Part shown: positions 1 through 22,816 of the stretch, in pieces
How the letters are laid out: each line of letters opens with the position of its first letter
How positions within the stretch are numbered: the stretch's first letter is position 1
Virus record (IMG/VR): IMGVR_UViG_3300036715_000585
Coordinates: 1 to 27,865 of that record
Strand: one strand, 5' to 3'
DNA from: a virus
DNA length: 27,865 bases
Translations under genes and position numbers: made by a program
The notes under the pieces: generated by a model
Database searches by the model: none
Seen by the model: only the letters and a program-made list of their open reading frames with translations
Told to the model about the DNA's origin: nothing

Positions 1-2004
1 GTTGAAGCAGCGCACCTTGCCAACCAACCCGTCGCCGCAAAGGCGGAGCAGGACGCACAAGGAGCCTACAACGATTTGCGCTTCGGTAAGCCCATTAAAG
101 ATGCGAATGGCAATATCACCCAGCAAGGCGGATATTTACAGCTTCAGAGCAAGGATGCACTCGCGCCTGATCCGAATACTGGGCTGTCACTCGAACAAAC
201 CTACACAGGCAAGCTCAAGGAAGCATTAGGCACGATTGAAGCAGGATTAACCAATGATGACCAGCGTGCAATGTTCCGCGCGCAAACTTCCAATATGCTT
301 CCAAGTTTTCAGGGGCAATTGCAACAGCACGTATTTCAACAGCAGGATGTATATACCAAACAGTCTAACCAAGGCGCGGCTGAAATGGCAGCGGAAACAG
401 CAGCGCTTAACTATAACAACCCAAAGATAGTTGATGAGCAGGTTAAAAAGGCGCAGCAAGCAGCATATTACCAGACGGTACATGACGGCATACCTGGTGA
501 CATGCAGACCAATGCTATCAAAACAACAGGCAGCGCTATCTATGCTAAGGTAATCTCTGCGGCGCTGGATAACAACAACCCGATGTACGCCCAGGCTTAT
601 TATGAGACGCATAAAGGCGACATGACTGCCAATGATTCGCTGGCTGTACTCGGTAAACTCAATACACAGGTAAATGCACAAACTGCCATGGGCGTTGTGA
701 ATGCAACTACCCAGCACTTCGCTACCCAGATACAGCCTAACGATATAACACGGCTACAGGGTGTAGTACAAAATCTGGAAAGTGCTGGCAATCCAAACGC
801 TGTTGGCAAGTTCATCCCAGGGCAAGGCACTGCAAAAGGCAGCATGCAGGTAATGGATGCAACCAATGCTAATCCAGGATACGGGGTTAAACCCGCTCAA
901 GATAATAGCCCTGCTGAACGCGCACGTGTGGGTAACGATTACATTGTTGCGCTTGTACAGAAGTATGGTGGGATAGATAAAGGCTTGGCGGCATATAATG
1001 CAGGACCAGGTGCATTAGAGGCCGCAATCAAAGCTGATCCTAACAACTGGCTTGCGCACATGCCCAAGGAAACACAAGCCTATGTCAATAAGGGTACAGC
1101 GATGTATCAGTCAGGCGGCGGCGCTGCGCCATTTCCAACTGAACTTGATTTTGTATATCATGCAATATCACAGCTACCTGCTACGGCTAATCCGCAACTT
1201 GTATCGCTAACCCAAACACAAGCAGTGCAGCAGTACGCGATGATAAAGCAAGCGCATAAGGATCAGGGTGAACAGGCATTGCAACAAGCGCAACAAGCAC
1301 TCATCGCCAACGGTGGCCAGCTTAACGCATTGCCACCGTCTGTAATCACTAACCTTGCTGCAGTTAACCCTGGGTCGGTAGACGGGCTTACTGCATTTGC
1401 TAAAGCAGTTAACCCTGCGACTAAAGATCAGGTAGTTACGGATCAAAAAGCCTTTGCCATGGCGGTTACTTATCCAGCTGAATTAGCCAAGATGAGTGAT
1501 GCAACGTTTGCAGGATTCCTTAAAACAAACTTCTCACCTTCTGATCAAGAGAAAATATCAAAACTTCGTGCAGGGGTAATTAACGGCACTACAGACACAG
1601 GTATCGGTAGCATAAACTTTACCACGATGAACAAGGTGCTATCAAATCGCTTAACAGCTTACGGTATATCACCACCCAAACCAAATGCTTCTGATGATGA
1701 TAAGCAACGATGGGGAACAATTCAGCACTTTGTCACCGACGACATTATGGCTGCGCAGCGTGATATAGGACACAAGCTCACGCCAGATGAAGTCACTCAG
1801 CACATCGATCATTTATTCATGACCAACATCAATTTCAGAAACTGGTATGGATCATCCGAACAGACAACTATGATGACGATTAAACCAGGCGATATTCCAA
1901 GCGGTGATGCCGATGCTATCAAAGCATCATTTGCCAAGCGTGGATTAAACAATCCTACCAACGATCAGATATTACGCGCCTACTGGAAAAGCCATGCCAA
2001 ATAA
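1..2004 (+). CDS. Virion protein with lytic transglycosylase (SLT) domain, 5' partial
   Basis: The frame is open to the left edge, so the true start lies outside the window; the first usable internal start is a TTG at 76. Counting from 76 (642 residues), an SLT-type lysozyme fold spans about residues 228-345. It has the catalytic-type Glu in the ESAGNP motif at E235, a GSMQVM segment and the AYNAGPG motif from A306. These are the hallmarks of family-1 lytic transglycosylases, which cleave the glycan strand of peptidoglycan. The flanks are long, Gln/Ala/Asn-rich and helical. The context (immediately upstream of a giant ejection protein, overlapping it by 11 nt) suggests an internal or tail-tip virion protein that opens the cell wall during DNA entry, like T7 gp16 or PRD1 P7 in role. 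The enzymatic domain is well supported; the virion location is inferred from context. Confidence 0.85.
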   Translation, partial: VEAAHLANQPVAAKAEQDAQGAYNDLRFGKPIKDANGNITQQGGYLQLQSKDALAPDPNTGLSLEQTYTGKLKEALGTIEAGLTNDDQRAMFRAQTSNMLPSFQGQLQQHVFQQQDVYTKQSNQGAAEMAAETAALNYNNPKIVDEQVKKAQQAAYYQTVHDGIPGDMQTNAIKTTGSAIYAKVISAALDNNNPMYAQAYYETHKGDMTANDSLAVLGKLNTQVNAQTAMGVVNATTQHFATQIQPNDITRLQGVVQNLESAGNPNAVGKFIPGQGTAKGSMQVMDATNANPGYGVKPAQDNSPAERARVGNDYIVALVQKYGGIDKGLAAYNAGPGALEAAIKADPNNWLAHMPKETQAYVNKGTAMYQSGGGAAPFPTELDFVYHAISQLPATANPQLVSLTQTQAVQQYAMIKQAHKDQGEQALQQAQQALIANGGQLNALPPSVITNLAAVNPGSVDGLTAFAKAVNPATKDQVVTDQKAFAMAVTYPAELAKMSDATFAGFLKTNFSPSDQEKISKLRAGVINGTTDTGIGSINFTTMNKVLSNRLTAYGISPPKPNASDDDKQRWGTIQHFVTDDIMAAQRDIGHKLTPDEVTQHIDHLFMTNINFRNWYGSSEQTTMMTIKPGDIPSGDADAIKASFAKRGLNNPTNDQILRAYWKSHAK

Positions 2005-5000
2005 TTATGATGATGCAGTGGGTTCAGTGCTGGGCAAAACAGCTGGCACGATACGTAACAATGTAAGTCTTGCGGCAAATAGCAACCCCGCGGCAGAAGC
2101 GCAATACCAGCACCTAGCCGCGCTCACCAACACACCAGTAGAAACCGTCCGCAATATGCCTGACGTGGCTAAACAGCAAGCTGCTATGCAATCAGTAGAT
2201 GCGGACGGGATAGCTACTAATTTCCCGCACCTGGCTAACTTTCTGTCTGACGCAGACAAGGCACGACTGGTACACGATAGCATTCCGCAGATGGCAGCTG
2301 TTGAAAAGACATTGCAGCATCCAGCCGCCGCACCCGTAGCAGATACTGGCTTCAACTGGAAAGACGAACTGGCAAATATTCCCTCCGAAGCTATTAAGGG
2401 CTTAGGCGGTGCATACAACAAAGCTGCATCAGGTGTAAATACCGTTCTAGGTGCTTTCCCAGTTATGTATGACAAAGCAACTGGTGGATCAGCGGAGTCT
2501 GACTGGTGGTTTAAGAATATGGTAGCGCCACGTGATGAAGCGCAGGCGGTTTTCAAAGCTGACCCACGGGCTGGATTGCCAGGAAAACTGGCAAACGCAA
2601 CGGGCAATCTTGTAGGTATGCTGTCACAGATTACCCTGTCTGGTACTGGCGCAGCGGCGGGTGCTGAATCTACAGCCGCATCAACTGTACCAGGTGCAAT
2701 TGCTCAAACCGTTGAACACGGTACCAAGTCTATGCTATTCCCTGCGCTCAATGACGCGGTGGATACAGGGAAGAAAGTTTATGCGCAGACTGGTGATGCT
2801 AATGCGGCGATGAAAGCCGCTCAAGCTCAGTACCTATCAACGTCTGCTATGGGCGTTATACCCATGTCAGCCCCAGGCAGGCTTGCTGCTAGATTGGCAG
2901 GCGGTGCCGCTTCTGGACTTGCGACAGGCGAAGCTTCACGCAACTTCATGAATGCTGAAATGCCCGATTCGATGCAGCAGTCATTTAACACCGATGATGC
3001 AATAATATCTTCACTGACGGGTAGCATACTAGCTGCACACGCAGCACACGGCAATGCAAACCCTGGCGGCCTCAGAGATGTACTCACTAAGCATTATGCA
3101 GATATTGCAGCCGCAGAAAAGGCCCAGGACGATCACACTATATTATCTGCATTAAGCCAGCAAGCAGCGGCTAACCCACTACGTGAACGATCACCAGATC
3201 AGTTTCACCAGTTCGTTGAGGATGCCAGCGAAAACGGTCATATCACAGCTGTGTATATTGACGCTCATACATTAAATAATGTATTCCACCAGTCAGGTGC
3301 AGATGCGCTTGATATTATGGCAAAGATGCCTGACATTGCTGGTCAGATGCATGAAGGGATTGAAACTAGCGGCACTATCAAAATACCAACTGCCGACTAT
3401 GCAACCTATATAGCAGGAACACCGTTAGATGCTGCGATTTTGCCGCACCTGAAAACTGACCCTGCTGGCAAGACTAAAGCTGAAGCAGATCAGTTTAATG
3501 CAAATCAGATTGAAGAATTGCGCGCGCACGCGCAGGATATTGTCAATAAGCATGTAGAACAGACAGAAAATGAAGCGGATAGCAAAGCCGTATATGACAA
3601 GATACTAGGGCAACTTGACGCTACGAAGCGCTTCACGCCAGACGTTAACAAGATATACGCAACAATAGCCCATGCTCACTACATTACCCGCGCTGAACAG
3701 ATGGGAATGAAGCCCAGCGAATTACTTGAACGCTATCCATTAAATGCCGTTGCTGAACGCATGGGCGGTGCTGCATTTAATCAAGGCGACATGGAGCCTA
3801 GAGAAAGCATAAGCCAAAAAGACTTGGCTCAATTAGATAAAGATTATGCAGAAGCATTAAAGAATGGTGATGATGCTACTGCAAGCAAAATAGTTTCCAA
3901 AGTAGCAAGTGCGCGCGGTTATGTGCAAGATGTATCAGGCACAAGGATGGATCACACCGCACCAACTAATGATGGCTATAGTTCGCCCCTACATGACTTA
4001 TCAAGCATCTATCCAGATGATATTTATTCACATAATGCAACTCGATATTATGGCGATGGAACACACTATGATCGTGACTCAATCGCAACGATGCAAAGGG
4101 TTAAAGGTAAGCCAGATGCAGATGTGAAGTTATATCGTGCTGTACCTAAAGGTGTTAAGGATACTAAGTTGCGTGTTGGTGATTGGGTATCTATATCTAA
4201 AGGATATGCAGAAGAACATGGCAAAGCTAATATAAATGGCCCATACAGGATTATCACTGATACGGTAAAAGCAAAGCACGTTTTTACGGACGCAAACTCA
4301 ATCCATGAACAAGGTTTTGATGATGGTAAAAACTATGCTTATAAAGATACGAAAAACAACCGCAAACTATTTGATACGGTTGTAACTGATCCTGAAACAG
4401 GAGAGGTTGTACCACCATCAAAACGATTTAATTCGCGTTCGTATAATGAGTACTATCAATCAGGTGCCAAAAACCGCGGCGCGTACAACCCCGAAACAGG
4501 GACTATCGCCCTGCTCAAGGATGCTGACCTAACCACTTACCTGCATGAGCTAGGCCACCACTTCCTTGAAATAAACATGGATATGGCTGGTCGCAGTGAT
4601 GCGTCTGAATTAGCTAAGAAAGATACAGACATACTGATTAAATGGTTTGGCGTGGACTCAATCGAAGCATGGCACAATCTGGATTTTGAGGAAAAACGCA
4701 GCTACCACGAACAGTTTGCACGGGGGTTTGAAGCCTATCTAATGGAAGGCAAAGCGCCAAACGTAGAACTGCAAGGTATATTCTCGCGTTTCAAGTCGTG
4801 GTTTCTCAATGTATACAAATCCTTAACAGCGCTAAATGTGGAACTCACGCCAGAAGTGCGCAGCGTAATGGATCGTATGCTGGCCAGTGAGGAATCTATC
4901 AAGAGCGCTGAACAGGTGCGCGGGTATGAGCCGCTATTCAAGTCCGCGGACGATGCAGGCATGACTCCTGAGCAATGGGCTGATTACCAGCATACTGCAT

Positions 5001-8000
5001 CCGAAGCAACAGACACAGCCGTGGAGGAAATGCAGGGCAAGTCCATGCGCGACATGAAGTGGCTATCTGGCGCAAAGAGTAAAGTGCTTAAAGCATTGCA
5101 GGAAGAAGCCGCCAGCGCGCGCAAAGAAATTAATAATCAAGTATCCGATGAAGTTGATAATAAACCGATATACCAAGCAATGCACTGGCTAAAGCGCGGT
5201 GAAATGACCGGCCATGACGGTGAGCTCATTAAGGCTGACAAATGGTTCAAACTTGATATCGATGCGCTGAAAGAAATGTACCCTGAAACTATGCTGAGCC
5301 GCCCTAATATCGATGCACTCGGTAAAGGCAAGTACGGTATGGCTGGCAAGGACGGACTGAATCCTGATCTTGTTGCTGAGATGTTTGGCTTTAGTTCTGG
5401 TGATGAGCTTGTCCGTACTTTACTTGAAACGCCTCCACGTAAGGAAGTGATCGAGGGGATGACTGACCAGCGCATGCTGGAAGAACACGGCGAACTATCA
5501 ACATCACAAGGGATAGAACGCGCAGCTGAGGCTGCAATACACAACGAGGCCAGGGCGCGTTTTATGGCTACAGGGTTGAAGATACTTACTAAGTCGCCAG
5601 TTCCTGTTCGCCATATTACCCAGGCAGCTAAGGAGGCTGCGGAATCAGCTATTGCAAACAAGAAGATTCGGGATTTGAACGTGCGCATGTATTCAATCGC
5701 AGAAGCACGTGCAAACCGTAATGCAATTAAAGCAGCACCAAAGGATACACGCGCTGCGGCTGTTGAGCAACGGGCAGCACTACTTAATAACCAACTGGTG
5801 CGCGCAGCAACGGATGCAGTTGAGGATGTCCGTAAGGGCAAGAACTTTCTTGAAAAGTATAATAAGGATTCAGTATATAAAAGCTTGGATGCTGACTATG
5901 TAGACCAGATACATGCACTGCTAGAACGGTTTTACCTGCGCTCTGGGCAATCTCTCAAGGCTATCGACAAGCGGGCAACCCTAGCCGCATGGATGAAGTC
6001 GCAGCAAGAAATGGGCTTAGAACCAGATATCCCGCCAGCGCTTGAAAACGAAGCGCTGCGTAAGTCATACAAAGATATGACAGTAAGCGAATTTCGTGGG
6101 CTAGTCGATACCATCAAGCAGATCGATCACCTTGGGCGCTTGAAGCGCAAACTACTTACAGCTAAAGACCAGCGTAGTTATGAAGCCGCACGTGATGAAA
6201 TCGTAAGCAGTATTCATGAGCATGCTGGAAACCGCACAGCAGATACCCGCACACCGACAACTAACATTGGGCGGACGATACAAGGGTTACGTCAGTTTTG
6301 GGCGGCTCACCTCAAGCCCATTATGCTAGCTAGAACGATGGATGGTGGTAAAGACGGTGGTCCGATGTGGGAATACTTCGTGCGTAATGCCAATGATAAA
6401 GGCAATATGGAAACGACCATGCGTTCCGATGCCACTAGGCAGCTATCAGAAATACTCTCGCCGATATTCAAACTTGGCATGATGGGCGGAAAAGGTAAGT
6501 ATTTCAAAAGCATAGACCGCAGTCTTAATCGTGAATCACGCCTGGCTATCGCATTGAATATGGGAAACGATGGGAATATCCAGCGACTACTTGGCGGCGA
6601 GAACTGGACGCGTGCACAAATCGAACCCGTATTGCACTCATTAACAGCTGAGGAATGGCATGCTGTTCAGGCGATATGGGATCACTTTGAATCATACCGC
6701 CCACAAATCGCAGCAAAAGATCGCCGCGTCTATGGCAAAGAACCTGACTGGGTTGAACCCACTCCATTCACTGCACATACAGCGGATGGCAAAGCTATTG
6801 AAATGCGCGGCGGATACTACCCTATCAAATACGATCCAGCCGCTAGTCAGCGCGCCGAAGATCATGCTGACGCAGAAGGTGCAAAGCGCCAGTTGCAAGG
6901 GGCTTATACCTCTGCCACTACCCGCCGTAGCTTTACCAAATCACGCGTGGATGAGGTTACAGGTCGGCCGCTGTTGTACTCAATGTCGGGTTTATATTCT
7001 GGGGTAAATGACGTTATACATGACTTGTCCTGGCATGAATGGCTAATAGATGCAAACCGCTTGCTGCGCTCAAAATCAATTGATGGTGCTATCCGCGAGC
7101 ACTATGGCCCAGAAGTAAAAACGCAATTCAAGGACTGGGTGAAAGATATTGCAGAGGGTGAACGCGGTGCGAATGGCGCTGGCGAGGCCATGTTAGGGAA
7201 ACTCAGACAAGGCGTAAGCGCGGCAGGTCTAGGATTCAATCTGGTAAGCGCATTGATGCAGCCGATAGGTATTACCCAGTCTATCACCCGATTGGGTGCA
7301 GGATGGGTTGGCAAGGGTTTAACACGGTACATAACGCACCCGTTCGATGCAATGCGCGATGCCAACAGCAAAAGCGAATTCATGGCGAACCGTTCACGTA
7401 CACGTTTCCGCGAGCTGAACGAATTACGCAACAAAGTGCAGGATGAAAGCCCCGCCATGGCCGCAGTGCATGGCAGCGCGTATTTCCTCATGATGCGGAT
7501 GCAGCAGATGGTTGACGTACCGACCTGGTGGGGTGGTTATGAAAAAGCGATTGCTGAGGGTAATGATGAGCCACGCGCTGTCGCACTAGCAGATCAGGCG
7601 GTAATAGACTCGCAGGGTAGCGGCATGACTAAGGATTTGTCTGCTATCGAGCGCGGTGGACCGTTTCAAAAACTGTTCACAACCTTCTACTCGTTCATGA
7701 ATACCCAGCTTAATTTAGGCGTTACTAGCGCTATGACACGTAGTAAAGGGCAGATGGCGATTGATTTTCTCATGCTATCCGTAGTTCCGACAGTCATGGT
7801 GCATGCTCTGAAATCTGTACTTATGCCAGGCGGGGGTGATGAGTGGGATTTGGAAAAACTATCAAAGCGATTGTTAGCTGAGGAAATTGATAACTTAATG
7901 GGGCTGATGATGGTGGTTCGTGAGTTTTCAGAAGCTGCTAAAACGATTTCAGGCGCAAACGATTTAGGGCGTGACTATACAGGACCAGCTGGACTTAGAA

Positions 8001-8209
8001 TGATATCTGATGTAGGTAAACTCGCTCAGCAAGCGCACCAAGGTGAATTTGATACTGGATTCCGCAAAGCAGCAATAAACGTAACGGGCGATATGTTTGG
8101 CCTACCATCAGCACAGTTGAATCGAACTATTACGGGTGTCCAGGCGTTGCAGGATGGAAAGACTAATAACCCTATGGCAATTGGATTTGGTTACCAAGAG
8201 CAGCATTAG
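1994..8209 (+). CDS. Giant polyvalent ejection protein with ART-like and zincin domains and LPD38-like C-terminus
   Basis: This 2,071-residue protein starts at an ATG inside the end of the transglycosylase gene. Visible modules: an Ala-rich N-terminus; an ADP-ribosyltransferase-like module (about 615-800) with candidate R-S-E residues R715, S733/S735 and E772; and a zinc metallopeptidase motif HELGH (H851, E852, H855) with candidate third ligands E906 or E913 in a HEQFARGFEAYL block. Long charged helices follow (about 970-1450), then a GGYYPI motif and a hydrophobic C-terminus (about 1740-2060) with the FQKLFTTFYSFMN signature I associate with LPD38 of large phage polyvalent proteins. Such proteins are thought to be packaged and injected with the DNA to act on host defences; that role is inference here. 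No vRNAP motifs were recognised. The gene ends in TAG. The ART-like segment is more AT-rich than its surroundings, suggesting an acquired module. Confidence 0.85.
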   Translation: MPNNYDDAVGSVLGKTAGTIRNNVSLAANSNPAAEAQYQHLAALTNTPVETVRNMPDVAKQQAAMQSVDADGIATNFPHLANFLSDADKARLVHDSIPQMAAVEKTLQHPAAAPVADTGFNWKDELANIPSEAIKGLGGAYNKAASGVNTVLGAFPVMYDKATGGSAESDWWFKNMVAPRDEAQAVFKADPRAGLPGKLANATGNLVGMLSQITLSGTGAAAGAESTAASTVPGAIAQTVEHGTKSMLFPALNDAVDTGKKVYAQTGDANAAMKAAQAQYLSTSAMGVIPMSAPGRLAARLAGGAASGLATGEASRNFMNAEMPDSMQQSFNTDDAIISSLTGSILAAHAAHGNANPGGLRDVLTKHYADIAAAEKAQDDHTILSALSQQAAANPLRERSPDQFHQFVEDASENGHITAVYIDAHTLNNVFHQSGADALDIMAKMPDIAGQMHEGIETSGTIKIPTADYATYIAGTPLDAAILPHLKTDPAGKTKAEADQFNANQIEELRAHAQDIVNKHVEQTENEADSKAVYDKILGQLDATKRFTPDVNKIYATIAHAHYITRAEQMGMKPSELLERYPLNAVAERMGGAAFNQGDMEPRESISQKDLAQLDKDYAEALKNGDDATASKIVSKVASARGYVQDVSGTRMDHTAPTNDGYSSPLHDLSSIYPDDIYSHNATRYYGDGTHYDRDSIATMQRVKGKPDADVKLYRAVPKGVKDTKLRVGDWVSISKGYAEEHGKANINGPYRIITDTVKAKHVFTDANSIHEQGFDDGKNYAYKDTKNNRKLFDTVVTDPETGEVVPPSKRFNSRSYNEYYQSGAKNRGAYNPETGTIALLKDADLTTYLHELGHHFLEINMDMAGRSDASELAKKDTDILIKWFGVDSIEAWHNLDFEEKRSYHEQFARGFEAYLMEGKAPNVELQGIFSRFKSWFLNVYKSLTALNVELTPEVRSVMDRMLASEESIKSAEQVRGYEPLFKSADDAGMTPEQWADYQHTASEATDTAVEEMQGKSMRDMKWLSGAKSKVLKALQEEAASARKEINNQVSDEVDNKPIYQAMHWLKRGEMTGHDGELIKADKWFKLDIDALKEMYPETMLSRPNIDALGKGKYGMAGKDGLNPDLVAEMFGFSSGDELVRTLLETPPRKEVIEGMTDQRMLEEHGELSTSQGIERAAEAAIHNEARARFMATGLKILTKSPVPVRHITQAAKEAAESAIANKKIRDLNVRMYSIAEARANRNAIKAAPKDTRAAAVEQRAALLNNQLVRAATDAVEDVRKGKNFLEKYNKDSVYKSLDADYVDQIHALLERFYLRSGQSLKAIDKRATLAAWMKSQQEMGLEPDIPPALENEALRKSYKDMTVSEFRGLVDTIKQIDHLGRLKRKLLTAKDQRSYEAARDEIVSSIHEHAGNRTADTRTPTTNIGRTIQGLRQFWAAHLKPIMLARTMDGGKDGGPMWEYFVRNANDKGNMETTMRSDATRQLSEILSPIFKLGMMGGKGKYFKSIDRSLNRESRLAIALNMGNDGNIQRLLGGENWTRAQIEPVLHSLTAEEWHAVQAIWDHFESYRPQIAAKDRRVYGKEPDWVEPTPFTAHTADGKAIEMRGGYYPIKYDPAASQRAEDHADAEGAKRQLQGAYTSATTRRSFTKSRVDEVTGRPLLYSMSGLYSGVNDVIHDLSWHEWLIDANRLLRSKSIDGAIREHYGPEVKTQFKDWVKDIAEGERGANGAGEAMLGKLRQGVSAAGLGFNLVSALMQPIGITQSITRLGAGWVGKGLTRYITHPFDAMRDANSKSEFMANRSRTRFRELNELRNKVQDESPAMAAVHGSAYFLMMRMQQMVDVPTWWGGYEKAIAEGNDEPRAVALADQAVIDSQGSGMTKDLSAIERGGPFQKLFTTFYSFMNTQLNLGVTSAMTRSKGQMAIDFLMLSVVPTVMVHALKSVLMPGGGDEWDLEKLSKRLLAEEIDNLMGLMMVVREFSEAAKTISGANDLGRDYTGPAGLRMISDVGKLAQQAHQGEFDTGFRKAAINVTGDMFGLPSAQLNRTITGVQALQDGKTNNPMAIGFGYQEQH

Positions 8210-15333: not shown

Positions 15334-15768
15334 TCAAAAAGGAATGTCGTCATCCATATCTTCAAAACTTGGAACACTTGGTTTACGCGCTGCTTGCTCT
15401 TCCAATTGTTTATTTTCAGATTGATCACCCTTGGATTTGCTTCCTAACATTTGAATTTTGTCGGCAATAATCTTAGTTGAATATCTCTCAATACCTTCTT
15501 TGTCAGTGTATTTGTCTGTTTTCATGCGTCCAGATACAAACACCTGAGAACCTTTTTCTAAATACTTTCCGCAAATTTCGGCAAGTTTCCCAAATACGGA
15601 AACGTTAATCCATTCAGTAGACTCTTGCTTTTCACCATTTTTATCTTTCCATTGGCTGCCTATTGCTATGCTAAAACTAGCTATTGCGTCACCGCTTGGC
15701 ATGTATCTGGTTTCTATATCCTTACCAATTCTGCCAATAAAATTACATTGATTTAAGTCGTTTGCCAT
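15334..15768 (-). CDS. ssb: Single-stranded DNA-binding protein
   Basis: The 144-residue protein has the complete bacterial-type SSB OB fold (about 5-108; FIGRIGKDIETRYMPSGDAI, ESTEWINVSVFGKLAEICGK, VSGRMKTDKYTDKEGIERYS). A short linker leads to the acidic tip DDDIPF, the docking peptide for SSB-interacting proteins. It coats single-stranded DNA during replication and RecT-mediated annealing. The SD AAAGGAAAAATA precedes the ATG. Its place directly downstream of the exonuclease and RecT supports a recombination module. Confidence 0.95.
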   Translation of the reverse strand: MANDLNQCNFIGRIGKDIETRYMPSGDAIASFSIAIGSQWKDKNGEKQESTEWINVSVFGKLAEICGKYLEKGSQVFVSGRMKTDKYTDKEGIERYSTKIIADKIQMLGSKSKGDQSENKQLEEQAARKPSVPSFEDMDDDIPF

Positions 15769-15782
15769 TATTTTTCCTTTAG

Positions 15783-17387
15783 TTATGCTACGTGTTGTAA
15801 ATTATGTGAAGCCTGGTACTTAACGAACTCAACTAAAATTGCACGAATCTTATTCTTGTCATTTCCAAACTCGCGTGTAGCCATAAAGGTACTGATTGCA
15901 TCCTGATTATCAATAAATATAGCCTTAGTATCAACTGGCTGAACAACTATCATAGACTGCGCTTCAACAACAACGGGCTGGTTGATATTTACCTTTAATT
16001 CGCACTCGATCTCGCTAATTTTCGTAAGCCGCTCAATTTCAGCAGCAACCTTTGCATCAGCTTCTGCTTGTATTGCTACGCGCTGCGCATCAACCTTGGC
16101 AGCTTCTGCTACTTTATGCGATTCAATACGTGAAGTAACAAGCAAATCAAAATCATCGCGCTGCTTAGTTATAATCTGTTGCAAGTCTGAAAATAGGAAT
16201 TTATATTCTTCCACTGTTCGCATTGCATCTAGTTTGTTGCGATAGTCACTTGCCAAAATATCGGCTTCTGATTTTGCATTAGCTAATACTGTACTAACTG
16301 CATCATGCCATGCTGATAACAAGCGCTTTCCTTTCATTGCGCCAGAAAAATCAGGTGATGATAGATTTAATCGTATTGGCTTAATTTCATTTTCCAACAT
16401 ATTGATGTAGTCTGCATATTCAGATTTTGCTGAGTTGATAATAGCCAGCTTCTTAGCTTCTTTTTCAGCTGCAACATCTTTTTCCAGCTTTAATGCTGTC
16501 ACGCGCAAATCTTCGTGCCATGCGTCTATCATACGTGCAGCTTCACCAATGGTAACTGTCTGTTCAAGCATCTGAGCTTTTGCCAGCTTCAACTTGTCGC
16601 ATGTTTCGCGGAACTGCTTTGCAGCAGCTTCTGCATTACTAAAGTCTTGATCAGTGATAAGTGCAATTGCTCGTACTTCTGCTAATTTTTTAGTCAGAGC
16701 TTCGCCAAATTCGCGCATGTTGCTAGTAGTGATCTCGCCTTGTGCTTGGATGAAAAGAGCAGGTAATTCAATCACTACATTAGCCTTGGGCGCTTCAACG
16801 ATCACTGCTGGCACGTATGTAGCCAGATCCTTTTCAAACTGCACCCACCCTGCTTGTATCTGCTTACGCAACTGCATATCTGGTTCATACCAGACGATAA
16901 CCTTTTCAACTAGAACATCATCGTCATCAAAACTGCTCGCCATAAATAAACATTTATCAGCGCCAGATATAAGTAATTGCTGTTCCATTTGTACGCGGTA
17001 CATTGCTGGCAAGTCGCTTTGTGACTTAACTTGGCGCAGGTCGTTGTTTAGCGTCTTATGCTCAAAGCATATATTCTCTGCCATTGTTAGTCCGTCAAAG
17101 CTGGCTGATAGCTTTCCAAGCGTACCTGTGACTGGGAATAACTCCTCGCCCACGATACCTTCGGCTATTGGTCGTGCTAATGCTTCAAGCCTATGACCTT
17201 TATCAAATCGGCGCTGTGTCGCTACGTCCACCTCTGGCACAATACCTGTTGCCAGTTCATGCATAAGCTGTGTTAGTGTCTTGTATTTCGATACACCCAT
17301 CATTGCGGGTGCGTCAGACGCATTGAAGTGTGCTGATCTGTGTGTGTGCCATTCTGGCGTGCCTTGCTCTACGTTTACGATATTCAT
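15783..17387 (-). CDS. YqaJ-type phage exonuclease with long coiled-coil extension
   Basis: The 534-residue protein carries a lambda-exonuclease/YqaJ-fold nuclease in its first 200 residues: GTPEWHTHRSAHFNASDAPA, GHRLEAL (E68), SFDGL (D98), EHK (E109, K111) and QMEQQLL, the D-ExK core plus family motifs. It should resect double-stranded ends 5'-3' to feed RecT. Residues about 220-470 are helical and Lys/Glu/Ala-rich, an extension absent from lambda Exo (about 226 residues) but common in this phage subgroup. The start overlaps the RecT stop (ATGA), so the pair is translationally coupled. Confidence 0.9.
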   Translation of the reverse strand: MNIVNVEQGTPEWHTHRSAHFNASDAPAMMGVSKYKTLTQLMHELATGIVPEVDVATQRRFDKGHRLEALARPIAEGIVGEELFPVTGTLGKLSASFDGLTMAENICFEHKTLNNDLRQVKSQSDLPAMYRVQMEQQLLISGADKCLFMASSFDDDDVLVEKVIVWYEPDMQLRKQIQAGWVQFEKDLATYVPAVIVEAPKANVVIELPALFIQAQGEITTSNMREFGEALTKKLAEVRAIALITDQDFSNAEAAAKQFRETCDKLKLAKAQMLEQTVTIGEAARMIDAWHEDLRVTALKLEKDVAAEKEAKKLAIINSAKSEYADYINMLENEIKPIRLNLSSPDFSGAMKGKRLLSAWHDAVSTVLANAKSEADILASDYRNKLDAMRTVEEYKFLFSDLQQIITKQRDDFDLLVTSRIESHKVAEAAKVDAQRVAIQAEADAKVAAEIERLTKISEIECELKVNINQPVVVEAQSMIVVQPVDTKAIFIDNQDAISTFMATREFGNDKNKIRAILVEFVKYQASHNLQHVA

Positions 17388-18412
17388 TCTTCCGCCTCCA
17401 TTTCTGCTAAAAATTCACTGTGGTCAATTTCAACTAAACTCGGTTTATCTGCTAACGCATAAATCATCGCTTTTTGCTCTATTGTAATGCTGTGCTTAGA
17501 TTCAATAGTTGCAATAATGTCGTCAGGCGTTTTCTTACATGCTGCAATTAGCTTTCCCCATGTGTCCAAGTTTTCATTAAGTTTCTCATCAGTATAGGCT
17601 GGCTTAGTTTTAACTTCTGGATCTGCTAGCACTTCTTGATCATCCTCATTAACAGGAATCCACTCGCCAGCAATAGCATCATTCACATTCAGACCTTGGC
17701 TACCTGTAGCTGCCGCATTATCTAGTTCAACAGCACGTGACAATTCGGTACTCATCGGCATGTATTTCAGAACTTGCAACAAAACAACCTTACGCGCATA
17801 CATTTCCATGTTTTCATAAGCATAGTGTTTATCACCAACCTTGTTATATTTTTGCAGATGACGCTTAACACGTGCAATTGACCATACCTCAGTGATTGCG
17901 GTATCTGATCCTTTTACTTTCCCGCAGGCATAAACATGAGTAGGCTCACCCTCTCCATGCATATCTCCAGGTATGTGAGTGCATTTAGGATCATCGCCTA
18001 ACTGGTAATCAAATTTGTCACCAGCGAATACCGCACCTGTCCATACTGAAGCCTGTCCAGATCTGGATACCAAATCAACTAAACCCTTCCAGCCAGGTAT
18101 AAATTGGCATTCCCAAGTTTTTTCCCATACATTGCCTACTTTTTTATTCTTTGCATAAGGAAGCAGGTAAGCTCTACCAAGCGTATCTGGTTCAAGTCCA
18201 AGTTGTGCGGCTTGAATAACGGCGGCAAATACACTGCGAGGATCGCATTCAGCAAGTTTTGGTGTACGACGAAATGCCGTTAGTGCAATGCGGCTCATTC
18301 TGTCGCCATTCAGGTGAGCAGGAAGCGCACGCTGAATCTCTGGTAGAAATGATTTAAGCATTGCTGGAAAATCTTTTTGTTGACGATCTTGTGATGTAAC
18401 TGATGTGCTCAT
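17384..18412 (-). CDS. recT: RecT-family single-strand annealing protein
   Basis: From the ATG at 18412 (GAGAGG about 7 nt upstream) the product is 342 residues. The RecT core is clear: FLPEIQRALPAHLNGDRMSR, SVFAAVIQAAQLGLEPDTLG, YLLPYAKNKK, CQFIPGWKGLVDLVSRSG and YARKVVLLQVLKYMP. The family promotes annealing and strand exchange between homologous single strands and works with an exonuclease, here encoded next. The C-terminal about 100 residues are acidic and variable. A TTG 15 nt upstream is an alternative start but lacks an SD. Confidence 0.95.
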   Translation of the reverse strand: MSTSVTSQDRQQKDFPAMLKSFLPEIQRALPAHLNGDRMSRIALTAFRRTPKLAECDPRSVFAAVIQAAQLGLEPDTLGRAYLLPYAKNKKVGNVWEKTWECQFIPGWKGLVDLVSRSGQASVWTGAVFAGDKFDYQLGDDPKCTHIPGDMHGEGEPTHVYACGKVKGSDTAITEVWSIARVKRHLQKYNKVGDKHYAYENMEMYARKVVLLQVLKYMPMSTELSRAVELDNAAATGSQGLNVNDAIAGEWIPVNEDDQEVLADPEVKTKPAYTDEKLNENLDTWGKLIAACKKTPDDIIATIESKHSITIEQKAMIYALADKPSLVEIDHSEFLAEMEAEE

Positions 18413-18455
18413 TTTATGTCCTCTCAATCTTTTTTTGCTTCAAAAATCCCATATT

Positions 18456-21653: not shown

Positions 21654-21791
21654 ATGTATAAACTTACTTGGTCATACGGTGGCATAGAACTAGAGAAAAT
21701 AGTAAACGAAGCCGCGTTAAATGCGGCTATCGACGAATTGCTAATGACAACTAGCATTGTTATTGTCGAGTTGATGAAAGATGATAAATGA
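21654..21791 (+). CDS. Small protein (45 aa) coupled to the methyltransferase
   Basis: The ATG at 21654 opens 45 codons (MYKLTWSYGGIELEKIVNEA, then LNAAIDELLMTTSIVIVELM) ending at TGA 21789-21791, which overlaps the methyltransferase ATG as ATGA. The SD is weak (GAAAG). Short beta-helix-beta proteins of this size are common in phages. The exact coupling makes it likely real. Confidence 0.55.
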   Translation: MYKLTWSYGGIELEKIVNEAALNAAIDELLMTTSIVIVELMKDDK

Positions 21792-22816
21792 ACGTACTAT
21801 CATGCTTCGACGGTATGTCGTCAGGTCAGATAGCACTGAACCGTATCGGCATAAAGCCAGATATTTATTACGCTGCTGAGATAGATAAATATGCTATCCA
21901 AGTCACGCAGCGCAATTACCCTGACACCGTGCAGCTAGGAAGCGTATTGGACTGGCAAAGCTGGAATATAGACTGGGCTAGTATTGACTTAGTGACTGGC
22001 GGGTTTCCATGTCAGGCTTGGTCAGTAGCAGGTAAAGGACTAGGCGACAAAGACCCACGCGGAGCATTGTTCTGGACGTTCCTGTACATTATTAAGAATG
22101 TGATGGTACATAACCAAAATGCTAAATTCTTGATGGAAAACGTCAAGATGAAGCATGAATTTGAGCAGTACATCACGCACCACACTGAGCAAGCGTTGGG
22201 GCATGTACAAAAGACGCTAATTAACTCGGCACTGGTATCTGCCCAAAGCCGCCAGCGTTATTACTGGACGAACTTTGCGGTGTCGCAACCAGCGGATAAA
22301 GGAATTGTTATGGCTGATATTCTCGAAAGTGAAGTTAGCGACATCTTTATATCACAAACACCAAAAAATCATGATGGAGGTAATCAACTAAACCCAGATT
22401 ACAAATCGCAAGCCAATACGATACATCTGGTGGAAGGAAAAGCGCCGACTATCTGCGCAGGAACGCATGGATATGCACTAGGGCATATTCCAGTATGCGG
22501 TGCGATTAGAGGGCGTTATATTGTTGACGGCAAGCGGCAGGACCACAAGCTGAAAACCGCAGGACTAACAGAGCAACGACTTGAGGTTAGACAAGACGGG
22601 AAAACAAATACACTAACCACGGTGCAAAAAGATAACGTGGTGGTTTATTCCGGCATTCGCTATCGTAAGCTGACACCCGTAGAATGCGAAAGATTACAGA
22701 CAGTACCCGATAACTTTACTGACTGTGTAAGCAACACGCAGCGATATAAGATGATTGGCAATGGCTGGACGGTTGATGTAATCGCTCACATACTAAAAGA
22801 CGGATTAAAACAATGA
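21788..22816 (+). CDS. DNA (cytosine-5) methyltransferase
   Basis: The 342-residue enzyme shows the C5-methyltransferase motifs in order: motif I VLSCFDGMSSGQIAL for AdoMet binding; motif IV GGFPCQAWSVAG with catalytic C75; motif VI ENV; motif VIII QSRQRYYW; motif IX RKLTPVECERLQTVPDNF; and motif X RYKMIGNGWTVDVIAHI. The target-recognition region (about 190-290) is unusual and short. It transfers a methyl group to cytosine C5 in an unknown target sequence. No restriction enzyme is adjacent, so its role is probably self-protection of phage DNA against host restriction. The FDGMSSGQIAL form is typical of phage orphan enzymes. Confidence 0.9.
   Translation: MNVLSCFDGMSSGQIALNRIGIKPDIYYAAEIDKYAIQVTQRNYPDTVQLGSVLDWQSWNIDWASIDLVTGGFPCQAWSVAGKGLGDKDPRGALFWTFLYIIKNVMVHNQNAKFLMENVKMKHEFEQYITHHTEQALGHVQKTLINSALVSAQSRQRYYWTNFAVSQPADKGIVMADILESEVSDIFISQTPKNHDGGNQLNPDYKSQANTIHLVEGKAPTICAGTHGYALGHIPVCGAIRGRYIVDGKRQDHKLKTAGLTEQRLEVRQDGKTNTLTTVQKDNVVVYSGIRYRKLTPVECERLQTVPDNFTDCVSNTQRYKMIGNGWTVDVIAHILKDGLKQ

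Follow-up and report, generated by a model that had tools for sequence, protein, structure and literature searches.

A probable R-S-E-type ADP-ribosyltransferase-like effector in an exchangeable slot of a giant phage ejection protein

What is encoded in the segment where a giant phage protein loses its similarity to every relative? The question is raised by the window, i.e. the whole stretch of 27,865 nucleotides that was analysed (positions 1 to 27,865 of IMG/VR virus record IMGVR_UViG_3300036715_000585), in which an intact open reading frame (ORF; 1994-8209) encodes a giant polyvalent/ejection protein of 2071 amino acids (aa), homologous to Bbp10 of Bordetella phage BPP-1. All the features of this protein given below lie on the + strand. 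The segment probably carries a compact effector that resembles ADP-ribosyltransferases (ARTs) of the R-S-E type (arginine, serine, glutamate), borne by a helical linker in an exchangeable slot of this virion/ejection protein. The original prediction had proposed such a domain. This reading is now supported by the conservation of R715 and E772, by fold neighbours that are overwhelmingly ARTs and by the swapping of the slot with ART-PolyVal domains, although no single structure match is significant.

A domain family with invariant arginine and glutamate

The core of the ART-like domain (about residues 645-779; 3926..4330) belongs to a family found by tblastn in 171 phage records and two Arthrobacter plasmids. 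Many of these matches correspond to stand-alone proteins of about 129 aa from mycobacteriophages; other forms include fusions in Rhodococcus and Gordonia phages and giant proteins. The candidate NAD (nicotinamide adenine dinucleotide)-binding arginine, R715 (4136..4138), lies in YRAVPKG (714-720) on the first core strand. The candidate S/T-x-S motif, S733-I-S735 (4190..4198), lies in GDWVSIS (729-735) on the second core strand, after an invariant D730-W731 pair, and the candidate catalytic glutamate, E772 (4307..4309), lies in IHEQGF (770-775) at the start of the last one. The residue numbers originally assigned to these motifs, and to the linker that starts with LDKDYAEAL at residue 614, are exact.

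Two samples bear on the predicted conservation of R715 and E772. Both residues are invariant in 14 of 14 relatives collected by plain, pattern-free similarity, as are H654, P657, D730, W731 and Y738. IMG/VR was also scanned with a reverse-complemented gapped DNA pattern, which gave at least 120 matches, essentially all encoding the domain; among the matches listed, 102 non-redundant members were collected via the pattern YRA[VL]P..GDWV. This pattern preselects R715, D730 and W731, while E772, H654, Y738 and H742 are free of selection. R715 and E772 are found in all 102 members. Position 733 is occupied by S or T in 98 members and position 735 in 67, and the spacing is mostly 16–18 residues from R to S/T and 37–41 from S/T to E. 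Single-sequence scans of viral and genome contigs for the window module gave no match, and a PDB sequence search found no relative of the domain; a weak row for a streptococcal exotoxin (E 0.4-0.6), limited to about 30 residues, was taken to be a chance match.

The 71 full-length family ORFs reveal the partners of the domain: ART-PolyVal in 11, MuF in 4 and, in others, portal, head maturation protease, LPD23, zeta toxin or an ADP-ribosyltransferase exoenzyme domain. One protein (L113) joins portal, module and MuF, and another (L055) carries two ART-PolyVal copies separate from the module. These partners match the head-packaging context reported for phage ARTs (PMC9503650). A C-terminal extension (residues 780-813; 4331..4432; YAYKDTKNNRKLF...PPSKRFNSRS), modelled with low confidence, is common to only a few polyvalent-protein members; it is conserved in L002 and L004 and absent from the stand-alone members.

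The module is also found in tandem, with two to three copies within one ORF (L033:6661-9129), and in two adjacent ORFs (L047:409-1226). The T4-like Vibrio phage VH7D encodes a stand-alone member of 145 aa (L008:2998-3432), flanked by the genes for the translation repressor and for DNA polymerase.

Exchange of the slot content and the helical linker

Homology to every relative breaks off from residue ~594 to residue ~827, and both flanks are conserved. This variable cargo slot (residues 594-827; 3773..4474) extends from the conserved 'RAEQMGMKPSELLERYPL' (YPL) segment to a zincin-like domain, whose metallopeptidase motif HELGHHF (residues 851-857; 4544..4564) directly follows it. According to Pfam, the slot contains a PBECR1 nuclease in BPP-1, PBECR5 in Cobetia phage Carin1 and ART-PolyVal in Caulobacter phage SR18, ctEw122 and Limnohabitans phage DC33 (E ~1e-20). 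The content was also scored with small home-made profiles in 64 IMG/VR relatives having both flanks (loci L141-L220). ART-PolyVal was detected in 24 of these slots, PBECR5 in 7 and both in 3, while the window's ART-like module was detected in none of the 64. ART-PolyVal occupies the slots of L141 and L142. The slot varies in length from about zero to 1627 residues and is shorter than about 20 aa in five relatives; in L159, L160 and L162 it is nearly empty, the YPL segment being almost directly joined to the zincin. The two nearest relatives, 86-91% identical before the slot and 79-81% after it, harbour one and two ART-PolyVal domains inside.

Alignments with and without the module thus show cassette exchange at a fixed position. 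Therefore, the original description of a module inserted in the giant protein is correct, but "exchangeable cargo slot" is a better term than "inserted module". In 36 of the 64 relatives, the slot content was not assigned to ART-PolyVal, PBECR1, PBECR5 or the window's module, and these slots may hold unknown effectors.

The low GC (guanine plus cytosine) content that had been taken as a hint of acquisition is confirmed: the slot has 39.6% GC, the minimum of any 702-base stretch in the gene, vs 49.4% in the remainder of the gene, and the GC content at third codon positions (GC3) is 27% vs 46% elsewhere in the gene. The 60-base lines at 4681 and 2521 have the predicted 48% and 62%. However, about 15% of the 702-base stretches in the window are equally low, and the low GC of the slot alone is weak evidence.

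The domain is preceded by a helical hairpin (residues 614-646; 3833..3931), modelled by AlphaFold as two helices (model residues 2-9 and 13-26). Its consensus, DxxYlxAVxxGDMExAQxMVdeAAkxaGY, is found ahead of the module in the polyvalent-protein members. A pattern scan detected 122 occurrences of this linker elsewhere, which were classed by what comes next. The usual start of ART-PolyVal-type domains, [YFW][HR]GT, occurs within 45 aa in 43 of them; a further 20 have ART-PolyVal at another place in the protein, and 5 have the window-type module. Several of the remaining class ("other", n=54) resemble HG[S/L] starts. Judging by what follows the linker in these occurrences, it is a single adaptor for both ART-PolyVal and R-S-E-type ART-like cargo. 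As anticipated, the segment is thus a linker of polyvalent proteins; in numerous further phage proteins, it stands ahead of ART-PolyVal-type domains.

Predicted fold and competing readings

The structure prediction called for by the original prediction was done with AlphaFold from an alignment of 91 sequences. The window model is a confident and compact fold (mean predicted local distance difference test score, pLDDT, 86.6, and >90 through most of the domain), and an independent member, L057, reaches a pLDDT of 91.3. The order of elements is helices, the R strand (model residues 96-104), the S/T-motif strand (117-119), a helix, a strand, a short strand and the E strand (158-161); R, S/T and E lie on successive core strands in both models. 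Structural neighbours are mostly ARTs. The six top Foldseek entries for the window model are all ARTs (Vis, ExoS), and 25 of 26 VIA-align rows with Z>=2 are of ART fold for the window model, as are 26-28 of 29 for L057. These rows include KptA/Tpt1, Vis, ParT, PARP14, ExoS, Arr and C3, and the tallies also count CNFy, IcmQ and TreX, which we take to be of ART fold. In the viral library, the strong matches are family members, with ModB and proteins labelled as ARTs among the weaker matches.

Several observations weigh against an ART-like enzyme. No single PDB match is significant, the best Foldseek E being 0.05-0.17, and VIA-align Z scores are at most 5.4, a level for which the tool warns of a possibly common arrangement. 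The closest single structures for both models are KptA/Tpt1 (Z 5.0-5.4), which act on nucleic acids. The domain matches no ART model of Pfam or NCBIfam, and the hhalign score against T4 ModA/ModB (20.0-23.5, top ~2% of 242 decoys) is no more than suggestive. The hhalign alignment places R715 on the Mod arginine; being near-identical copies of one another, the ModA/ModB relatives in viral contigs could not deepen the Mod profile. Finally, S733 is replaced by A in 4 of the 102 members, and the position two residues ahead of E772 holds neither E nor Q, unlike in ExE/QxE ARTs; the window has I770-H771-E772, and position 770 is I or L in 68 of the 102 members.

The KptA/Tpt1 matches, which rank first among single structures for both models, would fit a domain of ART fold that modifies or repairs nucleic acids or nucleotides (KptA/Tpt1-like or DarT-like) instead of a host protein. 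This alternative is unlikely: KptA is placed in the H-H-h clade (PMC9503650), whereas R and E are invariant in the window family. Furthermore, Z gaps under 1 are ties, and the KptA-aligned part (root mean square deviation 2.6-2.8) is limited to the ~75 residues of the core that is shared throughout this fold. Even less likely is an NAD+ hydrolase or a binding-only pseudo-enzyme of ART fold, which would deplete NAD+ or dock a partner without transferring ADP-ribose. The imperfect S/T motif of some members and the presence among the matches of the L057 model of the IcmQ domain, which is presumably NAD-binding and ART-like, would agree with it, but R and E stay invariant in phages that are widely diverged, which favours catalysis over a pseudo-enzyme.

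It is very improbable that the segment is only a structural or linker part of the ejection protein devoid of enzymatic role. Although the domain is located within a virion-type protein, it is dispensable, as near-empty slots indicate, swappable for known enzyme domains and also encoded by stand-alone genes. The least credible reading comes from a database label: the domain matches phrog_2579, "ParB C-terminal domain" (PHROGs; E 4e-35), as do all 91 aligned members, which would make it a DNA-binding domain. However, Pfam searches of the window protein and of 10 family proteins gave no ParB match, although two of these proteins, Myrna gp78 and gp129 of Mycobacterium phage Pumpkin (a stand-alone member), carry the annotation "ParB C-terminal domain". 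Among the 71 full-length ORFs, ParB_N is matched once, below its cut-off and with ~850 residues between it and the module, and the structural matches are ARTs. On sequence comparison, the label looks like a mis-transfer. Stand-alone mycobacteriophage members (L003, L013, L014) are annotated "ParB C-terminal domain", "ParBc domain" or "ParB-like nuclease".

Carrier protein, proposed action and known systems

The carrier is best explained as a member of the BPP-1-like podovirus ejection proteins. It displays the traits of polyvalent proteins, i.e. a giant multidomain protein with an LPD22 domain (residues 25-110, Pfam), the HELGHHF zincin motif and a slot for effector cargo; it also matches phrog_9880 (PHROGs). 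Its identity with BPP-1 Bbp10 is 35.6% over residues 5-107, 38.9% over 383-597 and 61.7% over 818-2069. The zincin-like region is conserved in Bbp10 and viral relatives but no Pfam model matched it in the giant protein. The upstream ORF (1..2004, + strand), whose 5' end is cut by the window, has an SLT lytic transglycosylase domain (PF01464, E=4.3e-10), an expected neighbour of an ejection protein. The order of these two ORFs is that of bbp11-bbp10 in BPP-1, where bbp10 is annotated in a cassette of structural genes and follows the gene for an SLT endolysin. By analogy with Bbp10, its structural cassette and the SLT neighbour, the giant protein is most likely packaged in the virion and injected with the DNA.

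Elsewhere, the window carries a C5-cytosine DNA methyltransferase gene (21788-22816, early region; PF00145, E 8.5e-41) and, on the minus strand, a YqaJ-type exonuclease and RecT recombinase pair (15783-18427). Downstream of this pair, an ORF (15334-15768) looks by eye like a single-stranded DNA-binding protein.

The giant protein would be packaged in the virion and would enter the cell together with the DNA. NAD+ would then be bound by the domain via R715 and the S/T motif, and E772 would transfer ADP-ribose to a host macromolecule, which would favour takeover or counter a defence. The adjacent zincin might free the cargo in the host. Host proteins are judged the likeliest target because of the R-S-E residues and the analogy with Alt, ModA and ModB; a nucleic-acid target, in line with the structural matches with KptA, is less likely.

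A wider proposal can be made tentatively. The large, unnamed family could be an R-S-E ART family mislabelled as ParB and one of the interchangeable warheads of a standard "cargo bay" of BPP-1-like ejection proteins. Cargo would be mounted on a common linker beside a zincin that may release it, and phages would swap their injected effectors as cassettes without changing the delivery part. ADP-ribosyltransferases are a kind of enzyme by which phages reprogramme their hosts. Well over a hundred phage records contain the family, in part as stand-alone genes of well-studied mycobacteriophages, and its activity is therefore directly testable in Mycobacterium smegmatis phages. The exchangeable slot also suggests a simple route to unknown injected effectors, i.e. 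gathering what lies between the YPL segment and the zincin.

ARTs have been described before as cargo of polyvalent proteins (PMC5512222, PMC9503650). What is new is an R-S-E-type family that has no Pfam or NCBIfam model and bears a misleading label, although the supplementary alignments of PMC9503650 may already hold it, and, as established by comparison of sequences, the place of this family in an exchangeable slot.

Among known systems, AcrIF11 resembles the window domain in being a small ART of a mobile element, and its target is a host defence protein. However, the AcrIF11-type identity that had been suggested for comparison is rejected: its diphtheria-toxin-like H-F-H-D site (PMC12421852) is absent from the family alignment of 14 relatives. 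AcrIF11 is not among the structural matches either, which by itself proves nothing. KptA/Tpt1, the tRNA 2'-phosphotransferase, is the best single fold match of both models (Z 5.3-5.4) but lacks any virion or polyvalent context. The PBECR1 and PBECR5 nucleases share the slot in BPP-1 and Carin1, with a nuclease fold that is unrelated by Pfam assignment. ART-PolyVal (PF18760) is comparable in slot position, preceding helical linker and giant carrier type; however, PF18760 matches neither the window protein nor the whole record, and the domain showed no similarity to an ART-PolyVal slot sequence when their profiles were compared. Furthermore, the polyvalent-protein ARTs have been described with an H-Y-D active site (PMC5512222), whereas in strand 1 of the window family the Y-[H/R] position holds R and not H. 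The R-S-E clade arrangement of T4 Alt, ModA and ModB is that of the window domain, which is much shorter (57 residues from R to E). Alt is packaged in the head and injected, whereas ModA and ModB are synthesised within the cell, which would also hold for the stand-alone family members. More generally, among the protein-modifying domains of polyvalent proteins, ARTs are the most frequent, and many of the ARTs that phages encode are packaged in the head (PMC5512222, PMC9503650).
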